A stretch of 49,479 nt of DNA from Deltaproteobacteria bacterium. GTDB lineage: Bacteria > Desulfobacterota > Desulfarculia > JACQYL01. Below the pieces are notes generated by a model that was not told the DNA's origin, ran no database searches, and was given only the letters and a program-made list of their open reading frames with translations. The position numbers were made by a program, and so were the translations under genes. The DNA lies in NCBI GenBank assembly GCA_016208165.1, contig JACQYL010000137.1, positions 1 through 49,479 of the forward strand, in the 5' to 3' direction. Positions 2,473 through 23,087 of the stretch are shown one piece after another (position 1 is the stretch's first letter; each line of letters opens with the position of its first letter).

Positions 2473-3372
2473 ATGAGAATTCTGAAACCCGGCATGATTG
2501 ACGATCGAGTTCTATTTCTGGGAAACCGGCACGTTTGTATGTACCTGGTGATGGGGGAGCAGTTCGCGCTGCTTGGAGGAGGAGTTGCCTGGGAGGTCCA
2601 GCGTTTGGAGTCCCAATTTCAGGAATACCAAGTTGACGTGAACCGCATCCGCTATCTGGTGATCTCACATGCCCACCACGATCACTGTGGCGCGGTCCCC
2701 TACCTGCTGCGCAAATACCCGCACATTCAGCCGGTGTCTTCAGAGTACTGCGCGTATCTTCTGAATAAGGACCAGCCGGTGGAACTCATCACCAAGGTAA
2801 ACAAGACTACCATAAACGCCCTCAAGCGATCGCACACTTTTGAAGGCATTTCTCTTGACTTCTTTCCCATCCCCGTTGCCGTCAAGGTGGGAGACGGGGA
2901 TCAACTGGATCTGGGAGGGGGACTATCGCTTCGATTTCTTTTGACCCCGGGCCATTCCAGATGCTCCATGTCCGTCTATGTTCCCGAGCTGCAAGCCTTG
3001 TTTCCAGCGGATTCGATACCTGCGCCGGAAACGGGAAAACGAGAACTCACGGTAACGGCAAACCACGACTACGACGCGTACCTGCAAAGTCTGGAAAAGC
3101 TGGAAAAGCTCCCCATCCGTCTGGTTTGTTATGAGCATGGCGGGGTCCTGACGGGCGAGGACGCGGCGGAGATCATACCCAGGGGCCTGGAAGCCACACG
3201 ATTGCAACGGGCTCGTATTCAGAAGCGATTCGAGGAGTTACAGGATTTCGACCTGCTTGTGGAGGAGATATCGGATAAATTCCATCAGTTGGAGCTGTTC
3301 CGTCTGGTGCCTCCGGACCTTATGCGGGCCATAACGGAGCGCATGGTCAAAAGCGCTTTAGGCTTGGTGTAG
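2473..3372 (+). CDS. Metallo-beta-lactamase-fold hydrolase
   Basis: A 299-residue MBL-fold protein, predicted to be a di-metal hydrolase. The metal-binding HxHxDH motif is HAHHDH at residues 66-71. GHSRCSM follows about 100 residues later as the third-motif His, then FPADS with the bridging Asp, and a late His in YEHGG. These are the four ligands expected of glyoxalase II/RNase Z-type hydrolases. It is not a flavodiiron protein, since no flavodoxin domain follows. The C-terminal 90 residues are helical and carry no known motif. An ATG at 2473 sits 10 bases after GTGAGG; a TTG at 2464 in the same frame is the alternative. The substrate is unknown. The gene lies about 170 bases after the thioesterase on the same strand and may be co-transcribed. 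Confidence 0.85.
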   Translation: MRILKPGMIDDRVLFLGNRHVCMYLVMGEQFALLGGGVAWEVQRLESQFQEYQVDVNRIRYLVISHAHHDHCGAVPYLLRKYPHIQPVSSEYCAYLLNKDQPVELITKVNKTTINALKRSHTFEGISLDFFPIPVAVKVGDGDQLDLGGGLSLRFLLTPGHSRCSMSVYVPELQALFPADSIPAPETGKRELTVTANHDYDAYLQSLEKLEKLPIRLVCYEHGGVLTGEDAAEIIPRGLEATRLQRARIQKRFEELQDFDLLVEEISDKFHQLELFRLVPPDLMRAITERMVKSALGLV

Positions 3373-3552: not shown

Positions 3553-4995
3553 ATGGAAATCGAGGCGGTGCCCATCCGCAGCATTCAGATATGGGAAGCA
3601 TTACACGGTCTGATACCCTATACGGACGACGACTTGGCTTTCCTCAGATCCGATCTCAAGAAGCGGGGGCAACAACTTCCTCTGGTTATAGACCAGAAGT
3701 ACCGACTTCTGGACGGGCACAGACGTCTTGCCGTACTGGACGAATTAGGCGTGGACCATGCCGTATGCATAATCAAAACCTTCACCAACGATAACGAGGC
3801 ATTGGAATTTGCCATAAGAAACAAGCTCTCCTGTCAATGCCTGCACCCGATCGACAGAGTACGCCTGGAAGTCAAGTTACGGGAATCACTATCAATCGTC
3901 CGATCGGACAGAAAGCGAGTCGATATCGATCGGTATATTCCGGACCGCCTGATCGATCTTCTGAAACGGAACAAAATAAAGGAAAGCTTTCTGCACAAAA
4001 TGGTGTTTGAAATGAAGTCCATGGAATCGAAGGTTGGGAATAGAGGCATTGAACACATTAAACAACTATTGAACACTACGGAAGCACCCTGGCTGCATCT
4101 GTCCACCATTCGCCAGTTTTTCAAAAATCCGGACGTCGACGACGAGACAAAGCAACGGGCCATTGAAGGGAAGTGGACCGTTCACCAGATGAGCACCGTA
4201 AGCTGGGGAATGATTGAACAAAAACAGAAGCACGAGCAGGAAGAAGCGGAAAGAAGCCACGCGTCGGCCCGAGAACTGTTCGAAACGAAATATGGAAGAA
4301 TACCGGAAGGAATCCCGGATGGATATCAATCGTGGGCGGAAAACAGACTTCGGCAATTCACCGACTCGTGGGGGATCACCAGGAATCGAGCCCTAACCTT
4401 ATCCGATCCGGAAATGGATTTCCTGATCTCTCAGCGTCTGGAGAAGGAAATCCTGGCTCATCGGGAATCCATCGATCGCAGAAAGGCGGAGTTCGAAAAG
4501 CGTCTTCGAAACCTGACCTCCAACATCGAACAGCTCTCAAAAAAGCATCCCCGGCCTTCAGCTCCCGAGCCTTCCATCACAAAGGACTGGGAAAACCTCT
4601 CCGAATCCCTGTTGACACCCCTGGAAAGAAAATGGCGGCAAAGGCAGACGGAACTGGAAGTCCAAAAAACGCAGATCGATCGCGAATCCGGTCTGCTCGA
4701 TCTGAAGTTTAAAGCGGAAGCCCTGAACAAAGAACTCAACGAGCGCTTGATACTCATCAAAAGGAGGGAGGCAACAAGGAAAAATCCCGAAGAAGATATA
4801 CGCATCGAATTGCTGGGACTCCTGCCGAACAACTGGGAGTCCATGCCGGAGAAAGACTGGAAACACTTTCAGCGGGCTTTTCGATTGGTGCTCCATCCGG
4901 ACCGAAGGGGCAAAGACTTCACGCACACTTCGTCCGTTGTCAACGCCCTGCTGGACTATGCGAACCAGAAACGATCGTTCAAAATCTCCCCATAG
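3553..4995 (+). CDS. ParB-like N-terminal domain protein with coiled coils and J-like C-terminus
   Basis: A 480-residue protein of unusual build. Residues about 5-90 form a ParB/Srx-type domain: PIRSI at the start, then PLVIDQ and DGHRRLAVLDELG (the GxRR-type phosphate-binding box) at 54-66. The middle (about 100-230) is helical and charged and could be a helix-turn-helix segment. Residues about 230-420 are rich in Glu, Lys, Arg and Gln, with long predicted coiled coils. Near the C-terminus HPD at 448-450, preceded by FRLVL and followed by a helix, resembles the helix II-HPD-helix III core of a J domain. Start ATG 3553 has GGAG 6 bases upstream. There is no parA next to it, so it is probably not the chromosome partition gene. 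It could be an orphan regulator or phage/plasmid-derived. Function unknown. Confidence 0.65.
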   Translation: MEIEAVPIRSIQIWEALHGLIPYTDDDLAFLRSDLKKRGQQLPLVIDQKYRLLDGHRRLAVLDELGVDHAVCIIKTFTNDNEALEFAIRNKLSCQCLHPIDRVRLEVKLRESLSIVRSDRKRVDIDRYIPDRLIDLLKRNKIKESFLHKMVFEMKSMESKVGNRGIEHIKQLLNTTEAPWLHLSTIRQFFKNPDVDDETKQRAIEGKWTVHQMSTVSWGMIEQKQKHEQEEAERSHASARELFETKYGRIPEGIPDGYQSWAENRLRQFTDSWGITRNRALTLSDPEMDFLISQRLEKEILAHRESIDRRKAEFEKRLRNLTSNIEQLSKKHPRPSAPEPSITKDWENLSESLLTPLERKWRQRQTELEVQKTQIDRESGLLDLKFKAEALNKELNERLILIKRREATRKNPEEDIRIELLGLLPNNWESMPEKDWKHFQRAFRLVLHPDRRGKDFTHTSSVVNALLDYANQKRSFKISP

Positions 4996-17633: not shown

Positions 17634-18437
17634 TTAATGAATGATGAACCCCGCGTATCCGACCACTTGGCCGTAGTCCCCGGTCGCGTCGCCGCTGGTG
17701 GCGTAGGCCGTCAGATCGCTGTTCTCGGCGCCCAGCTCCAAACAGGCCAACAGGGTGATCGTGACGGGAATCACTCCGCACATGGAAATACCATGGTCCA
17801 CCACGGTCCGGTACAATCCTTCCGGGTCCATGGCTTTGATACGATCCATGGCCATACGGTCTTTCCGGCCCGCGGCTTCCTGGGATTCGTAGTGCGTCAT
17901 GTCCGAACTTGCGACGATTAACGTCGGGTCGCCGATTTCCTCGATACTCTGCGCCAAAGCGTGTCCTATGGATACACAATCCGAGTACTTAAGAAACGAC
18001 AGTGCAACCGGGGTCAGCTTGAAATCCGATCGGATTCCCTGGATGAAAGGCAACTGAACTTCCAGGGAATGCTCGTAACGGTGGGCCTCGGCGTCGACTT
18101 TCATCAACGGACAGTGGGCCACCAACCGATCCGCCATAACCGAATCGAGTTCCACTCTCCCATTGGGCATGTCCCAGGAACCGTCTCTCATAACGGCCAC
18201 ACGCGATCCGATTCCCCGGTGGTTCACGCCCAGCAGCACCACGCGCTCGGGAATCCGGATCCTCGAGTACACGCTGCCCGCCACTTTACCTGAATACATG
18301 TACCCTGCATGGGGCGCCACCACACCACGGGCCGTTTGTTTGGACACATTTTTTTCCAGATACCCCTGAACCTCCCGAGCCAAAACGGCTGGGTTTCCGG
18401 GATAGAATTGATCGGCTACTGCCGGAGGTCTGAGCAT
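17634..18437 (-). CDS. amrB: MEMO1/AmmeMemoRadiSam system protein B
   Basis: A 267-residue protein of the MEMO family, related to extradiol dioxygenases and found beside a radical-SAM protein and an AMMECR1 protein in many genomes. Its own reaction is not established. Family features are RPPAVADQFYPG near 3-14, APHAGYMYSG (41-50), NHRGIG, EHSLEVQLPFIQ near 121-132 and SSDMTHYE near 178-185. The His residues at HAGY, NHRG, EHSLE and THY are the putative metal ligands. AAGGAG precedes the ATG. The partner radical-SAM and AMMECR1 genes are not in this window, so the gene is separated from its usual neighbours. The mobile element inserted just upstream of its promoter. Confidence 0.93.
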   Translation of the reverse strand: MLRPPAVADQFYPGNPAVLAREVQGYLEKNVSKQTARGVVAPHAGYMYSGKVAGSVYSRIRIPERVVLLGVNHRGIGSRVAVMRDGSWDMPNGRVELDSVMADRLVAHCPLMKVDAEAHRYEHSLEVQLPFIQGIRSDFKLTPVALSFLKYSDCVSIGHALAQSIEEIGDPTLIVASSDMTHYESQEAAGRKDRMAMDRIKAMDPEGLYRTVVDHGISMCGVIPVTITLLACLELGAENSDLTAYATSGDATGDYGQVVGYAGFIIH

Positions 18438-18713: not shown

Positions 18714-18725
18714 CCCACTCCCGGT
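18714..18725. repeat. Left target-site duplication, 12 bp
   Basis: CCCACTCCCGGT lies directly outside the left inverted repeat. The identical 12 bases lie directly outside the right inverted repeat at 21727-21738, as expected for a transposition target duplication. Confidence 0.9.
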
Positions 18726-18740
18726 TAGTGTCCTAATTTG
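18726..18740 (+). repeat. Left terminal inverted repeat, 15 bp
   Basis: TAGTGTCCTAATTTG is the exact reverse complement of 21712-21726. The transposase stop codon TAG (minus strand, 18735-18733) lies inside it. Identity ends at base 16. Confidence 0.92.
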
Positions 18741-19573
18741 CCGCCCTCAAAAAATCTTCTATAATCCACAATCGGTCGGTGACTTGCTCTTCCGTGGCAG
18801 GAGTCACTTTCAATGTCTTGTGAATCCTCACAAAATTGTAATAGGCAGAGTGAAGAGCAACAACGGCCTTCAGGTTTTCAAGTTTCTTACTGAACGCATT
18901 CGTTAGCCGAGTAAAAAGGCGCATGGACATTCTGATTGTAAGATTTTGTCTTTCCAAAAAAGAAGGTGAAGATTTTGTTAGGATCGGAGTTTCCCGCGAT
19001 TTTCCTTTTTTTCCATGGCGATCGCCTCTGGGGGGAGACCGTACCTACCCGGTCCAATTGGTCGCTCCCCGTAGGACCTTACAATCTACGCATAATCCAC
19101 TTCTGCGCCAAAGCTTTCCTCAACGGCATCGACGCGTTGGCAAAGCATATCTGAGCTTAACTGGATACGGGTAGTCAGGGAAGAGCGAAGGTCGGAAATG
19201 ACGTCTCTGGCTGTCTCAATATTACGTCTTGCGATCTGAATGGTTGGAACGAGCACAGTGTCAGAGTCAAGCGCAACCCACGTCCAAAAGTCGCCCATTT
19301 CAAAAGGGTTATCCGCCCTGTTAAGGTGTGGTTTCTTGTTGCCGAAAAAAGTCCAAATTTCGTCCAACTGGATGCTCTCGCACTGAAGGCCCTTCATGGT
19401 TTTATTCGGAAGTTTTTGACAGCCTTCCCATGTAGGCACCAAAAGGCGTGTAATCGTATCCCTGCGGACCCCTGTCATTTGCTCAGTGGATCTAATGGGG
19501 CAACCTTCCACCCTGTGGACGAGATAACTCCCTCTTGCTTTCGGAACTTCAATGGGAACTTCAAATTGTTCAT
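18733..19573 (-). pseudogene. IS1-family transposase, multiply interrupted
   Basis: Three reading-frame pieces on the minus strand together cover a one-ORF IS1-type DDE transposase. The N-terminal helix-turn-helix and DEIWTFFGNKK (first acidic residue) are in one frame down to 19089. Then QxxY-type sequence YA-stop-IVRSYG shows an amber codon TAG at 19088-19086 where homologues have Gln. The frame breaks again at a run of seven A (19012-19006), after which NSDPNKIF, LERQNLTIRMSMR and the C-terminus LHSAYYNFVRIHKTLKVTP follow in another frame to 18733. The expected start (ATG 19573, MNNLK) is itself out of frame with the first piece, so a third lesion lies near 19530-19555. The A7 run could be a programmed slip site, as in IS1, but the other lesions make the gene dead. 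Confidence 0.88.
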
Positions 19574-19615
19574 TGCGATGCCCCATTAAGCGTGTTATCT
19601 TGAAAAACTTGTTTA

Positions 19616-19689
19616 GTGGGGCCACTCGGGATCGAACCCGAGCAGTCGGGTGTAAACCCACAACTACGAGCGCCCAACTCTGGCCCCAC
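19616..19689 (-). pseudogene. tRNA-Val(UAC)-like relic
   Basis: On the minus strand GGGGCCA and TGGCCCC form a perfect 7-bp acceptor stem followed by discriminator A. Inside are a D-arm-like GAG-TTGGGCG-CTC, an anticodon-type loop TTTACAC (UAC, valine) on a stem with one mismatch, and a T arm with TTCGATC. The standard two bases between acceptor and D stem are missing, and the T loop carries one extra G. It is therefore probably a degenerate tRNA copy rather than a working tRNA. The outer 9-bp inverted repeat GTGGGGCCA/TGGCCCCAC could alternatively be a simple hairpin. It sits between the transposase and the cargo operon, upstream of both. Confidence 0.4.
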
Positions 19690-19744
19690 GTCTCAAGGGG
19701 AATAGGTTGTGTTCTCAACTTAATTCCCCTTTTATTTTGCGCAG

Positions 19745-19772
19745 TTGCCGTGTTCATAGAATGGAGTATAAT
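19745..19772 (+). promoter_or_regulatory. Candidate promoter of the cargo operon
   Basis: TTGCCG (19745-19750), a 16-base spacer and a perfect TATAAT (19767-19772) lie 60 bases upstream of the toxin gene. The whole stretch 19745-19831 is AT-rich and contains a second TATAAT touching the toxin start codon, so more than one start site is possible. Confidence 0.45.
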
Positions 19773-19831
19773 AATTTTATTATATTCGGCCAAGCGGGAA
19801 ATGCTTGCCAATATAAGATTTTTGTTATAAT

Positions 19832-20206
19832 ATGAGCATATGGAAGTTCAAAGTATTTCTTAGCAACCGAGAACTCGACACCTTCGAGGAGTGGTTGACT
19901 GATCAGGACAAAGAGGCTCGTGTAAGAATTAGGAATACTATCGCGTACTTGGCAAACATAGAAAGACACCAGTGGGGTAGGCCGTACTTTGCTCCGATAG
20001 GTAAAAGCATCTATGAAATCAGGGTTCAGAGCGGAAAAAAGCAATATAGAATTTTTGGCTGTTTTGGCTTCGGGCCTCAAACATTTACACTATTAATAGG
20101 AACAGGCAAAAAGGGAAAGACTTATACTCCAAAAGACGCGATAAAGACTGCCCAAAAAAGGCGCAAACTAATTGATGAGGATAGGGGCTATTTAGGTGAA
20201 TACTGA
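19832..20206 (+). CDS. RelE/HigB (Gp49-like) toxin
   Basis: A 124-residue basic protein with the Gp49/HigB branch pattern of RelE-type toxins, which are mRNA interferases acting at the ribosome. Visible features are an N-terminal helix region (FEEWLTDQDKEARVRIRNTI), the strand segment IYEIRVQSGKKQYRIF near 62-77, then FTLLIGTGKKGKTYTPKDAIKTAQKRR, the typical C-terminal helix. The ATG at 19832 has no Shine-Dalgarno sequence; a TATAAT abuts the start codon. It overlaps the antitoxin gene by 11 bases and comes first, the HigBA-like order. Cargo of the mobile element. The toxic activity is inferred from family. Confidence 0.85.
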   Translation: MSIWKFKVFLSNRELDTFEEWLTDQDKEARVRIRNTIAYLANIERHQWGRPYFAPIGKSIYEIRVQSGKKQYRIFGCFGFGPQTFTLLIGTGKKGKTYTPKDAIKTAQKRRKLIDEDRGYLGEY

Positions 20207-20753
20207 CGAAAGAGAAATCCTTAAGGAAGAATTAAAGGACAAAGAATACAGGGATATTTTTGTTTCTGTGACCGTCGATCAAACGATACCATTTCAGATT
20301 AGAACTATGAGGTTATCTAAGGATCGACATTGGACGCAAGAGGAGTTGGCCAAAAGGTCAGGTATGATGCAACCTAGAATTGCGGCCTGTGAGAATCCAA
20401 ACTATGGTAAATTTTCCCTACAAACTTTAAAACGAATAGCTGCCGCTTTCGATGTGGCCTTGATAGTTAGGTTTGCTCCATTTAGTGAGCTTGTTGAATG
20501 GAAAGCAAACCTATCACCTGATAGTTTCAATGTGAGAAATTTTGAAAATGAAGAACATTATTTTTATAGGATTACTGAAACAGAAACAACAGGTTCGCTT
20601 TCATTAAGAGAGGAATATTCAGGACCACAGGTAGATCAATCGCTAAAGTATAATGAACTCCCCAAATCGGCGTCGAACATATTGACTTTGTCGAGTGAAG
20701 GAAACCAAGCCATTCCGGAAATGCCCATAGAAAGAAAACGAGTAGCGCGATGA
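20196..20753 (+). CDS. XRE-family antitoxin with long C-terminal extension
   Basis: A 185-residue protein, predicted antitoxin and repressor of the operon. Residues about 33-85 form a lambda-repressor-type helix-turn-helix (WTQEELAKRSGMMQPRIAACE, then FSLQTLKRIAAAFDVALIV). The following 100 residues are not recognised and are longer than in usual HigA proteins. They may be the toxin-neutralising part or contact the two downstream products. GTG start at 20196 has AGGGG 8 bases upstream and lies inside the toxin gene, so expression is coupled. The stop overlaps the next start as ATGA. Confidence 0.85.
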   Translation: MNTDEREILKEELKDKEYRDIFVSVTVDQTIPFQIRTMRLSKDRHWTQEELAKRSGMMQPRIAACENPNYGKFSLQTLKRIAAAFDVALIVRFAPFSELVEWKANLSPDSFNVRNFENEEHYFYRITETETTGSLSLREEYSGPQVDQSLKYNELPKSASNILTLSSEGNQAIPEMPIERKRVAR

Positions 20754-21409
20754 ACCTATTATCTGTTAAACTGGCAAGGAGTATTTGGTTAGGACCGATT
20801 TCAGACCTAAACCCAAAAGGCATTAGTATCGCTCGAAGCCTATTTCCTTTTCTAATAGATACGTATAAATTTATGGAATACCCGTCTTCTACAAAAACTG
20901 AAGATCCACAAGCGGGACTTAAATTCGAGAACGGTGAGTTTGAAATCGATGGACATGACTATCCAATTCACATCAATTCTTTAACTCTATACCTTGATGG
21001 AATAACAGTTGATACTCACTCCTCTACCAATTATTCTGATGTCATTTTAGATAACGTACTTACAAAATCAGAGCAACTTTTTGGTGGACCTGTCTATGCT
21101 TCAATAATTAAGCAAAAATTATACGTTAGTGAGGTCTACGTTTCAACTGATCAAGTCTTGGAAAGACTCAACTCAAAACTGAAACAAATTTCTAACTATT
21201 TGATTAAATATTTTGGAAAAGAAATAAACTTTCAAGCTGGTGGTATTTCATTTTGGCCAGATCCAAAAAACAAGTTCAATCCAAGACCATTTGCTTTCGA
21301 AAGAGCGGTTGAAGCACCATTTTCGGAAAACAGATACTACTCAATAGCCCCAATACCAACCGACAAACATCTTGAGTTATTAGATAAACTAGAAATGATT
21401 CTAAGCTAA
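20750..21409 (+). CDS. Unknown protein, third gene of the cargo operon
   Basis: A 219-residue protein I cannot place in a family. It has no membrane segment or signal peptide and is mixed alpha/beta: an N-terminal half with strands (FENGEFEIDGHDYPIHINSL, LTLYLDGITVDTHSS) and a helical middle with VLERLNSKLKQISNYLIKYF, ending in a Leu-rich helix. It begins with an ATGA overlap with the antitoxin gene and its TAA overlaps the next ATG by one base. It is therefore translated as part of the toxin-antitoxin unit. Its base composition matches the other cargo, not the host. It may be a third toxin-antitoxin component or an independent passenger. Confidence 0.7.
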   Translation: MNLLSVKLARSIWLGPISDLNPKGISIARSLFPFLIDTYKFMEYPSSTKTEDPQAGLKFENGEFEIDGHDYPIHINSLTLYLDGITVDTHSSTNYSDVILDNVLTKSEQLFGGPVYASIIKQKLYVSEVYVSTDQVLERLNSKLKQISNYLIKYFGKEINFQAGGISFWPDPKNKFNPRPFAFERAVEAPFSENRYYSIAPIPTDKHLELLDKLEMILS

Positions 21410-21696
21410 TGAAGACCGAATTGAAAGAAGCCGTGGAGCAATTACATAACTGCAAAGCAGAGTGGTCTGAATCTATTCCAATTAACGAAACCTTTCAGGG
21501 TCACACAGTTTGGGAAGGTAAGGTTCAGGTTTTCGAACTATCAAGCCATCCGAAGGTTAAAAAGTGCTATGTTTGGTCTCACCCTATGGAAGGATCAGAC
21601 AAGAGTAAATTCTATGCCATTCTCCATCAAGGTCCTGTAGACTCCCCCGAGGCCTGCGTGCGGGCGGCAATCGTCAGTGAATATGGCGAAAAATAA
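21409..21696 (+). CDS. Unknown small protein, fourth gene of the cargo operon
   Basis: A 95-residue protein starting at the A of the upstream TAA (TAATG). It has no transmembrane segment. The central part VFELSSHPKVKKCYVWSHP followed by FYAILHQGPVDSPEACVRAAI looks like a compact alpha/beta domain, but I do not know its function. The stop lies 15 bases before the right inverted repeat, so the operon fills the element to its edge. Gene density and overlaps argue that all four cargo genes are kept together. Confidence 0.7.
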   Translation: MKTELKEAVEQLHNCKAEWSESIPINETFQGHTVWEGKVQVFELSSHPKVKKCYVWSHPMEGSDKSKFYAILHQGPVDSPEACVRAAIVSEYGEK

Positions 21697-21711
21697 TCCT
21701 TTCTGGAAATT

Positions 21712-21726
21712 CAAATTAGGACACTA
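21712..21726 (-). repeat. Right terminal inverted repeat, 15 bp
   Basis: CAAATTAGGACACTA, exact reverse complement of the left end of the element. Confidence 0.92.
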
Positions 21727-21738
21727 CCCACTCCCGGT
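21727..21738. repeat. Right target-site duplication, 12 bp
   Basis: CCCACTCCCGGT, identical to 18714-18725 and directly adjacent to the right inverted repeat. Twelve bases is longer than the 8-9 typical of IS1 itself but within what I recall for the family. Confidence 0.9.
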
Positions 21739-21788: not shown

Positions 21789-23087
21789 TTAATTCAACAT
21801 CCGGTCCGGCAGCCACGTGGCCAGCGCCGGGAAAAGCACCAGCAGGGACACCACGACCATCTCCATAACCACGAACCAGGCCACCCCGGCGAATACCTGC
21901 CTCGACGGCAATCCGGAAACCCGTTTGATGATAATGACATTGGTGCCCACCGGTGGAGTGATCAGACTCACTTCGATCATCACCGTTACCACGATCCCGA
22001 ACCAGACGCCGTCAAACCCGAGTTTTGTGATCACCGGAAAAAAAACCGGAACGGTCAGCACCAGCATTCCGATCACATCCATCATACACCCCAGTATCAG
22101 GTATACCACCAAAATCGCCGTCAGTATCACGTAACGATTGGCGGGCAGCGAGATCACCCAGTCGGCAAACGACACGGTGAGCCCCGTGATGGATATGAAT
22201 TGCGTGAACATCGAGGCTCCCAGGAGGATGGCCACGATCATCGCCGTGAGGCGAATGGCCTGGCCCAGCGCTTCTCCGAGCACGTATCGGTCCAGCTTTC
22301 TTACGGCCGCCAATATGCCCAAGGCTCCCGCCGCTCCGATGCCCGCCCCTTCCGTAGGCGTAAACCAGCCCAAAAACATGCCGCCGATGACGAGCAAAAA
22401 TAGAAGGGTGACTCCCCAGACCCTCCAGGGCGCACGAAATCGTTCCCGCCAGGAAGATGTTGCTCCGCTCGGAGCCATGTTCGGATGGCGGACGGCCCGG
22501 AAATAAATCAGGCCGCTGAAAATCATCGCAGTCAGCAGTCCCGGAATGATTCCTCCCACGAAAAGGCGGCCTATGGATTCTTCGGCCAGAAGCCCGTACA
22601 GCACCATGGGAATGCTCGGGGGAATCAGGATGCCCAGGGTTCCGGCGGCCGCGATGGTTCCCACGGCAAAGGTGGGATCGTACCGATGGCGCTCCAGTTC
22701 CGGCAGGGCGATTTCCCCCAGGGTAGCCACAGCGGCTACGCTCGATCCGGTTACGGCTCCGAGACCCGCGGATGCGAACACCGTGGCAATACCCAACCCG
22801 CCGGGAACGCTTCCGAACCATTTGTGCATCACATCATACAGCTCCTCGGTGATACCCGATCGGAACGCGAATTGTCCCATCAAAATAAAGAGCGGTATAC
22901 AAGCCAGCACGAAGTGGGCCGTGTTACTGTACGCCACAATGGAAAAAGCGGCGATTCCCGCTTGCCAATTCGACAAGAGAGCAAACCCGGCGAGTCCCAC
23001 GCCGGCCATGGCAAAAGCGACGGGCACGCCCAGGGCCAAAAGAACGAGTAGGGCGACGAAGCCCCACACTCCGAACCACGGTTCCAT
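21789..23087 (-). CDS. dctM: TRAP transporter large permease (DctM)
   Basis: A 432-residue inner-membrane protein with about 12 hydrophobic segments, the large transport subunit of a tripartite ATP-independent transporter. It uses an ion gradient to import an organic acid delivered by the periplasmic protein. Family marks are the start GFVALLVLLALGVPVAFAMAG, the conserved ILIPPSIPMVLYG near 153-165 and PTEGAGIGAAGAL near 251-263. The ATG has GGGGGAG 2-3 bases upstream. It is the last gene of a UroD-like/dctP/dctQ/dctM minus-strand set, 9 bases after dctQ. Confidence 0.95.
   Translation of the reverse strand: MEPWFGVWGFVALLVLLALGVPVAFAMAGVGLAGFALLSNWQAGIAAFSIVAYSNTAHFVLACIPLFILMGQFAFRSGITEELYDVMHKWFGSVPGGLGIATVFASAGLGAVTGSSVAAVATLGEIALPELERHRYDPTFAVGTIAAAGTLGILIPPSIPMVLYGLLAEESIGRLFVGGIIPGLLTAMIFSGLIYFRAVRHPNMAPSGATSSWRERFRAPWRVWGVTLLFLLVIGGMFLGWFTPTEGAGIGAAGALGILAAVRKLDRYVLGEALGQAIRLTAMIVAILLGASMFTQFISITGLTVSFADWVISLPANRYVILTAILVVYLILGCMMDVIGMLVLTVPVFFPVITKLGFDGVWFGIVVTVMIEVSLITPPVGTNVIIIKRVSGLPSRQVFAGVAWFVVMEMVVVSLLVLFPALATWLPDRMLN

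Follow-up and report, generated by a model that had tools for sequence, protein, structure and literature searches.

A small transposon is commonly pictured as two ends with a transposase in between. What, then, is a 3-kb element with IS1-type ends, a broken IS1-type transposase and four open genes, found in a 49,479-nucleotide stretch (the window) of a Deltaproteobacteria bacterium (contig JACQYL010000137.1)? We compared this element to related loci and found, as our main result, a family of cargo-carrying IS1-type transposons with a recurrent small protein, termed ORF4 (ORF, open reading frame), and a recurrent tRNA-like RNA, which is possibly regulatory and new. The window element is, with good confidence, a decayed member of this family. 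Sequence comparison shows the ends and an 8-bp duplication rule; it also shows that the transposase is broken, that the cargo genes are open and that both ORF4 and the RNA recur.

The element and its family

We compiled 142 related loci, near-copies included, from genomes (the best 80 of 284 confirmed) and from viral contigs (62 loci). Complete elements could be delimited at 82 of them, 39 by paired TAGTGTCC ends and 43 by a motif-free search for an exact 8-bp direct repeat adjoining an inverted repeat around the transposase. The motif-free search gave elements, all starting with GG, at 43 of the 103 other loci, and in five controls, each setting the left region of one locus against the right region of another, the counts were 0, 1, 0, 0 and 1 of 103, so that the signal is not due to chance. 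The 60 loci that it did not delimit include some at contig ends. Delimited elements measure 1.86-6.26 kb (n = 82), and none is a simple insertion sequence (IS) of ~0.8 kb. An initial annotation of the window had regarded passenger genes as the exception in IS1-type elements, which is not the case here, as all 82 are at least 1.86 kb long. Its proposal of a transposon-like IS1-type unit that has toxin-antitoxin-type cargo and is part of a cargo-carrying subgroup is in turn supported.

The relatives also define the borders. All 39 with paired TAGTGTCC ends read GG-TAGTGTCC...GGACACTA-CC, and their target duplication is an exact 8 bp in 35 cases and 9 bp in three (L079, L096, L110); in the remaining one (L034) the two 8-bp copies differ by a single mismatch. 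Three alternative end pairings (L067, L096, L110) had been set aside before this count, another pairing there giving the duplication. Because GG...CC belongs to the ends in 39 of 39 relatives, we place the window element at 18724-21728 (3,005 bp), with 17-bp inverted repeats that differ at one position, the left end reading GTTAGTG instead of the family GGTAGTG (Table 1). The 3-kb element reported initially is thus real and its perfect 15-bp ends TAGTGTCCTAATTTG / CAAATTAGGACACTA are present in the sequence, but its borders shift slightly. Likewise, the direct repeat CCCACTCCCGGT, put forward as a 12-bp flanking duplication, exists but is composed of the 8-bp duplication and four chance matches.

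The transposase homology shifts frame at least twice (the N-terminal shift was judged by eye), and its last stop lies within the left terminal repeat, in agreement with the transposase pieces already seen to end there in the window. The pieces align at 49% and 60% with an intact relative (L002, 280 aa). The best NCBIfam family is IS1 transposase (NF033558), with 30.4 bits for the window piece and 67 bits for L002 at a cut-off of 100. We use the label IS1-type because this best-family score stays below the curated cut-off. When the window pieces are aligned with relatives, positions for D (LDEIW), D (LSSD) and E (ERQN) become readable, and we assume for them the catalytic role of an aspartate-aspartate-glutamate (DDE) triad. 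A ~90-bp insertion in the gene (19005-19085) was considered and rejected: the stretch aligns with intact relatives and represents decay. As in the window, the terminal repeat's own TAG serves as transposase stop in 8 of 30 RNA-bearing loci (L007, L013, L015, L016, L017, L020, L022, L092).

A broken transposase between intact ends and an intact duplication would also be expected for a non-autonomous derivative, in which minimal IS1 ends took up a toxin-antitoxin island and depend for their movement on an intact copy elsewhere that acts in trans. We consider this improbable. In the bacterium's own assembly (5.69 Mb, 142 contigs, 95.5% complete), neither the element nor the transposase was found a second time, and no intact related transposase turned up. 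Relatives with an intact transposase share the layout of ends, RNA, transposase and ORF4, which makes decay after insertion the simpler account. Nor does the element consist of minimal IS1 ends, as had been suggested, for it contains its own decayed transposase and RNA. As a decayed family member, it is probably now immobile. The four plus-strand genes are intact and the transposase is not, which suggests that the cargo may have been kept by selection or may have come in later.

A recurrent tRNA-like RNA and a recurrent small protein

The RNA is 68-71 nt long (base 1 to 73), with a short D-arm directly at the acceptor and a YUACA-type loop. We aligned the window copy with 24 stretches of one pattern, leaving out several that have longer variable regions or were found later. 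All seven acceptor pairs are formed in 25 of 25 sequences, four of them being changed on both sides; the 5-bp T-stem is formed in 96%, and pairing in the anticodon stem is more variable (63%). Covariation reached 0.472, compared with 0.144 (standard deviation 0.018) after shuffling and at most 0.168 in slid alignments. The window copy, which the initial annotation had overlooked, is degenerate, with a G-C pair at 3:70 and a T-loop of 6 nt, and is cloverleaf-like with a fold z of about -3.6.

A strict geometric scan of the 142 loci located tRNA-like stretches upstream of the transposase in 30 cases in sense and in none in antisense orientation, and downstream in two; four of the 30 are of other kinds (L037, L101, L103, L117). 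A covariance-model search at E up to 1, covering the window and 85 loci (L092-L148 left out), returned 33 matches; in 32 of them a transposase or transposase piece follows just downstream, and in one (L070) it does not. The T-arm motif GGTTCRA is present upstream of the transposase at 42 of 142 loci, some of these stretches not being tRNA-like, and its background frequency is 60 of 1161 windows. Among 63 genomes from the class, the sole covariance-model match at 0.001 was an ordinary tRNA-Ala, the bacterium's own genome giving none because, at 27.5 bits, the window copy falls short of the threshold. Judging by their titles, RNA-bearing loci span at least nine phyla, with place and strand beside the transposase kept and other cargo varying. 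The RNA ends ~50-90 nt before the transposase start in one set and ~270-340 nt before it in another, distances that argue against a role limited to that of a leader in the transposase message.

ARAGORN called no tRNA in the window; among the relatives' upstream stretches submitted to it, it called nine, with odd anticodons. The Rfam tRNA family had no match at the RNA's place in seven relatives (the L014 stretch and six whole loci), L014 and L012 gave sub-threshold tmRNA-type matches only, and no Rfam family was assigned at thresholds. One locus, L033, has two tandem tRNA-like RNAs (4543-4610 and 4622-4690) upstream of a single transposase.

Pair 3:70 is G.U in 24 of 25 sequences, the window alone having G-C, and base 73 is A in all 25; together these form the alanine identity set. 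The anticodon columns read UUA (TTA) in 16, CUA (CTA) in 6 and other triplets in 3. The RNA might thus be a working nonsense-suppressor tRNA, inserting alanine where a gene of the element has UAA/UAG codons. Yet 24 of 25 sequences have C at position 37, and five lack U at position 33, both unusual for a decoding tRNA. Moreover, the transposase has no internal stop in 28 of the 30 RNA-bearing loci (L030 has four, L033 one), and no conserved extension is found behind its stop in these 30. We rejected a suppression- or readthrough-dependent transposase on these grounds and regard a working suppressor in general as improbable; a decoding role as such is possible. The alanine identity set is also described in PMC7609411.

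The second recurrent component, ORF4, had been taken for part of a four-gene toxin-antitoxin cargo. Three of these genes indeed fit a cassette, but the fourth, ORF4, recurs with many other cargoes: its cluster has members in 25 of the 39 other elements, and a profile search detects it at 71 of 142 loci, including positions within 32 of these 39 elements. No Pfam family was found for it at thresholds (26 members searched, one chance-level PepSY match), nor a sequence match in the PDB, nor, with the L017 protein as query, a match on plasmids and phages. Its AlphaFold model is confident (predicted local distance difference test score, pLDDT, 93.2) and contains a helix, four strands and a helix. 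Foldseek returned no structural relative at E <=0.001, an absence from which we conclude nothing; a second structure comparison ranked a designed beta-sheet protein best (Z 5.4), and UGI reached 4.6. In a quick tree of 131 transposases, where the window branch is long and rests on the N-terminal piece, one clade of 71 rows unites 67 rows with ORF4 by profile and the window. The other three rows are L020 (contig cut), L095 and L112, and one ORF4 locus, L083, falls outside. In the window's clade, ORF4 is mostly located at the far end, on the opposite strand.

It is conceivable that ORF4 and the RNA are passengers, kept by chance or for host-related reasons and without a part in transposition. 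In line with this, many family members lack one or both of them, ORF4 occurs at either element end and on either strand, and irregular bacterial tRNAs without known function have been reported in a review (PMC7609411). The constant place and strand of the RNA across at least nine phyla, in the face of varying other cargo, argue against it, as does an ORF4 frame that starts, in 17 loci, within ~30 nt of the point where the same-strand transposase match ends. We find the passenger explanation rather unlikely. With a probability somewhat below even, the core of a family spread across phyla may comprise, besides transposase and ends, ORF4 and a minimal alanine-identity tRNA-like RNA with a stop-codon anticodon, which would jointly regulate transposition and allow exchangeable toxin-antitoxin and restriction cargo to be carried.

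Varying cargo and the cassette of the window element

Gene content was examined in 39 elements and the window. Pfam was searched individually for 50 of 114 cargo ORFs, and tallies over all 114 count what was among the matches listed. Named cargo includes a Tsp45I restriction enzyme with its methylase (L016) and GmrSD (L024), and further methylases are found in L067 and L098 (Eco57I-type). Other elements carry Schlafen-AlbA (L028, L035), NYN (L014), M78 with a helix-turn-helix (HTH) domain (L025), SocA/Panacea with a ParA-like ATPase (L063), DUF5343 (L023, L069) or DUF3800 (L116). P63C-domain proteins are cargo in 6 of 39 elements (L015, L017, L019, L022, L026, L040), and a Clp protease (L061), a proteasome-type gene (L096) and an indole-glycerol-phosphate synthase (L110) were also found. 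For 24 of the 50 ORFs no Pfam family was obtained at 0.001. The cargo seems to lean to restriction, toxin-antitoxin and defence functions, not exclusively. A second recurrent small gene forms an 11-member cluster (L050, L053, L055, L062, L068, L072, L080, L085, L096, L098, L110); most copies follow ORF4, and some occupy the interval from RNA to transposase on the other strand. This gene is possibly a regulator.

The four overlapping AT-rich genes initially described as filling the rest of the window element are indeed all open on the plus strand, with a guanine-cytosine content of 39% for the cargo against 57% in the rest of the window. The first two score 55.3 bits with PF05973 (cut-off 23.9) and 28.9 bits with PF01381 (cut-off 23), and a Gp49-family toxin gene followed by an overlapping HTH gene is the layout predicted for a Gp49/HTH type II toxin-antitoxin pair. 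We considered a SecB-type chaperone for the 219-aa product of the third gene and rejected it, with no family match and no PDB match at E <=0.001; its model has a mean pLDDT of only 62.8. Matches to this protein occur in 4 of 247 genomes of the phylum, its own and three others (four places). None was confirmed in viral contigs, and plasmids gave one match of 26% identity. The element lies between two minus-strand host genes, one starting at 18437, which we take to be AmmB/Memo-like, and one ending at 21789, presumably a DctM-like TRAP gene.

Table 1. Features of the window element (positions in the window)
Feature	Position	Strand	Remarks
Left target duplication copy CACTCCCG, 8 bp	18716..18723	.	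Border defined from 39 relatives
Left terminal inverted repeat, 17 bp	18724..18740	+	One base off the family end
IS1-type transposase pseudogene	18733..19595	-	Open pieces 18733-18957 and 19086-19595; in-frame TAG at ~19086
tRNA-like RNA, degenerate copy	19617..19687	-	Just upstream of the transposase, on its strand
Predicted Gp49-type (RelE/HigB-like) toxin gene, 124 aa	19832..20206	+	Pfam PF05973, E 7.2e-15
Predicted HTH antitoxin-type gene, 185 aa	20196..20753	+	Pfam PF01381, E 1.2e-6
Third cassette gene, 219 aa	20750..21409	+	No family
ORF4, 95 aa	21409..21696	+	Recurs in the transposon family
Right terminal inverted repeat, 17 bp	21712..21728	-	
Right target duplication copy CACTCCCG, 8 bp	21729..21736	.	

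One of the other genomes (G080, locus L155) contains a second IS1-type element with the same three cargo genes, at 36, 46 and 46% identity for the Gp49, HTH and 219-aa proteins. Its inverted repeats (1761-1782 and 4839-4860) pair at 19 of 22 bases (86%), and GGGAGTTG on both flanks forms its own 8-bp duplication. The transposase of L155 (1770-2630, minus strand) has an in-frame TGA, possibly through simple decay or recoding, where other aligned relatives keep a conserved Cys, and a lysine-rich small gene of 79 aa (4555-4794, minus strand) is found at the place of ORF4. A different tRNA-like stretch (~2733-2834, minus strand) precedes this transposase, with a 9-bp acceptor helix in its fold and a long variable arm; its loop might read UAU, recalling the UAU group of allo-tRNAs in PMC7609411.

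The cassette also occurs without a transposon: at L157, its three genes stand between genes we recognise as tpiA and secG, with no IS1 transposase match there. At the same presumed tpiA-secG site in another genome of this genus (L158), the HTH and 219-aa genes are located behind a gene of 135 aa, for which tblastn gave no Gp49 match. A Gp49-HTH pair is also present within the 6.3-kb element of L096.

Relation to known systems and a model for the family

We compared the family to known systems. IS1 duplicates 8-9 bp of its target, and long members are placed by ISfinder in the ISMhu11 subgroup of IS1. With the IS1 family (NF033558; PF03400), the elements described here share a transposase that is IS1-type by its profile matches, as well as terminal inverted repeats and target duplications of 8-9 bp; they differ in a single-frame transposase under the curated cut-off and in a length of 1.9-6.3 kb with extra genes, ORF4 and a tRNA-like RNA. 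Insertion sequences with passenger genes are a recognised class, termed tIS (PMC7986276), and likewise combine an IS-type unit with genes of no evident transposition role. Here, in contrast, extra DNA is found in 82 of 82 delimited elements and includes a recurrent protein and RNA. Tn3 family transposons are known to carry Gp49/HTH pairs (PMC7157771); the pair is shared, whereas transposase family and ends are others here, and a third, 219-aa gene follows the pair. Allo-tRNAs are defined by an 8/4 or 9/3 acceptor/T-stem (PMC7609411), in contrast to the 7/5 acceptor/T-arm of our RNA, which also differs from these and other irregular tRNAs by its fixed place before an IS1-type transposase. We found no description of this IS1-type family in the literature searched, most subscription journals being outside it, which is no proof of novelty.

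In our model, a one-frame IS1-like DDE transposase would, at the active stage, have acted on the GGTAGTG...CACTACC ends, and the whole 3-kb unit would have inserted between the two host genes with an 8-bp duplication. ORF4 may help or restrain transposition. The RNA may act as a tRNA mimic with alanine identity that helps to control transposase expression; if charged at all, it would probably be charged with alanine, and it could tie transposase expression to translation or RNA processing. The Gp49/HTH/219-aa cassette may make loss of the element costly, which would explain why the cargo outlived the transposase.

Several observations weigh against this model. The transposase remains under NCBI's IS1 cut-off, and support for the ORF4 clade is modest (SH-like approximate likelihood ratio test, SH-aLRT, 81, in the quick tree). 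Half of the 142 loci are without ORF4 and most without the RNA, and neither is therefore needed across the wider family. No target for a stop-reading tRNA was found in the transposases of the 30 RNA-bearing loci, cargo genes not being scanned. Finally, no empty site was seen, the genomes drawn containing no member of the bacterium's own family and no flank search having been made.

The family is widespread and, in the 82 delimited elements, always carries extra DNA, with cargo that is often restriction, toxin-antitoxin or defence-like, and many members keep a tRNA-like RNA beside the transposase. If the RNA or ORF4 were needed for movement or its control, this would amount to tRNA-linked regulation of DDE transposition, which to our knowledge is known nowhere else. 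Irregular bacterial tRNAs are suspected in a review (PMC7609411) to accompany transposable elements, and they would thereby gain a concrete, testable home.

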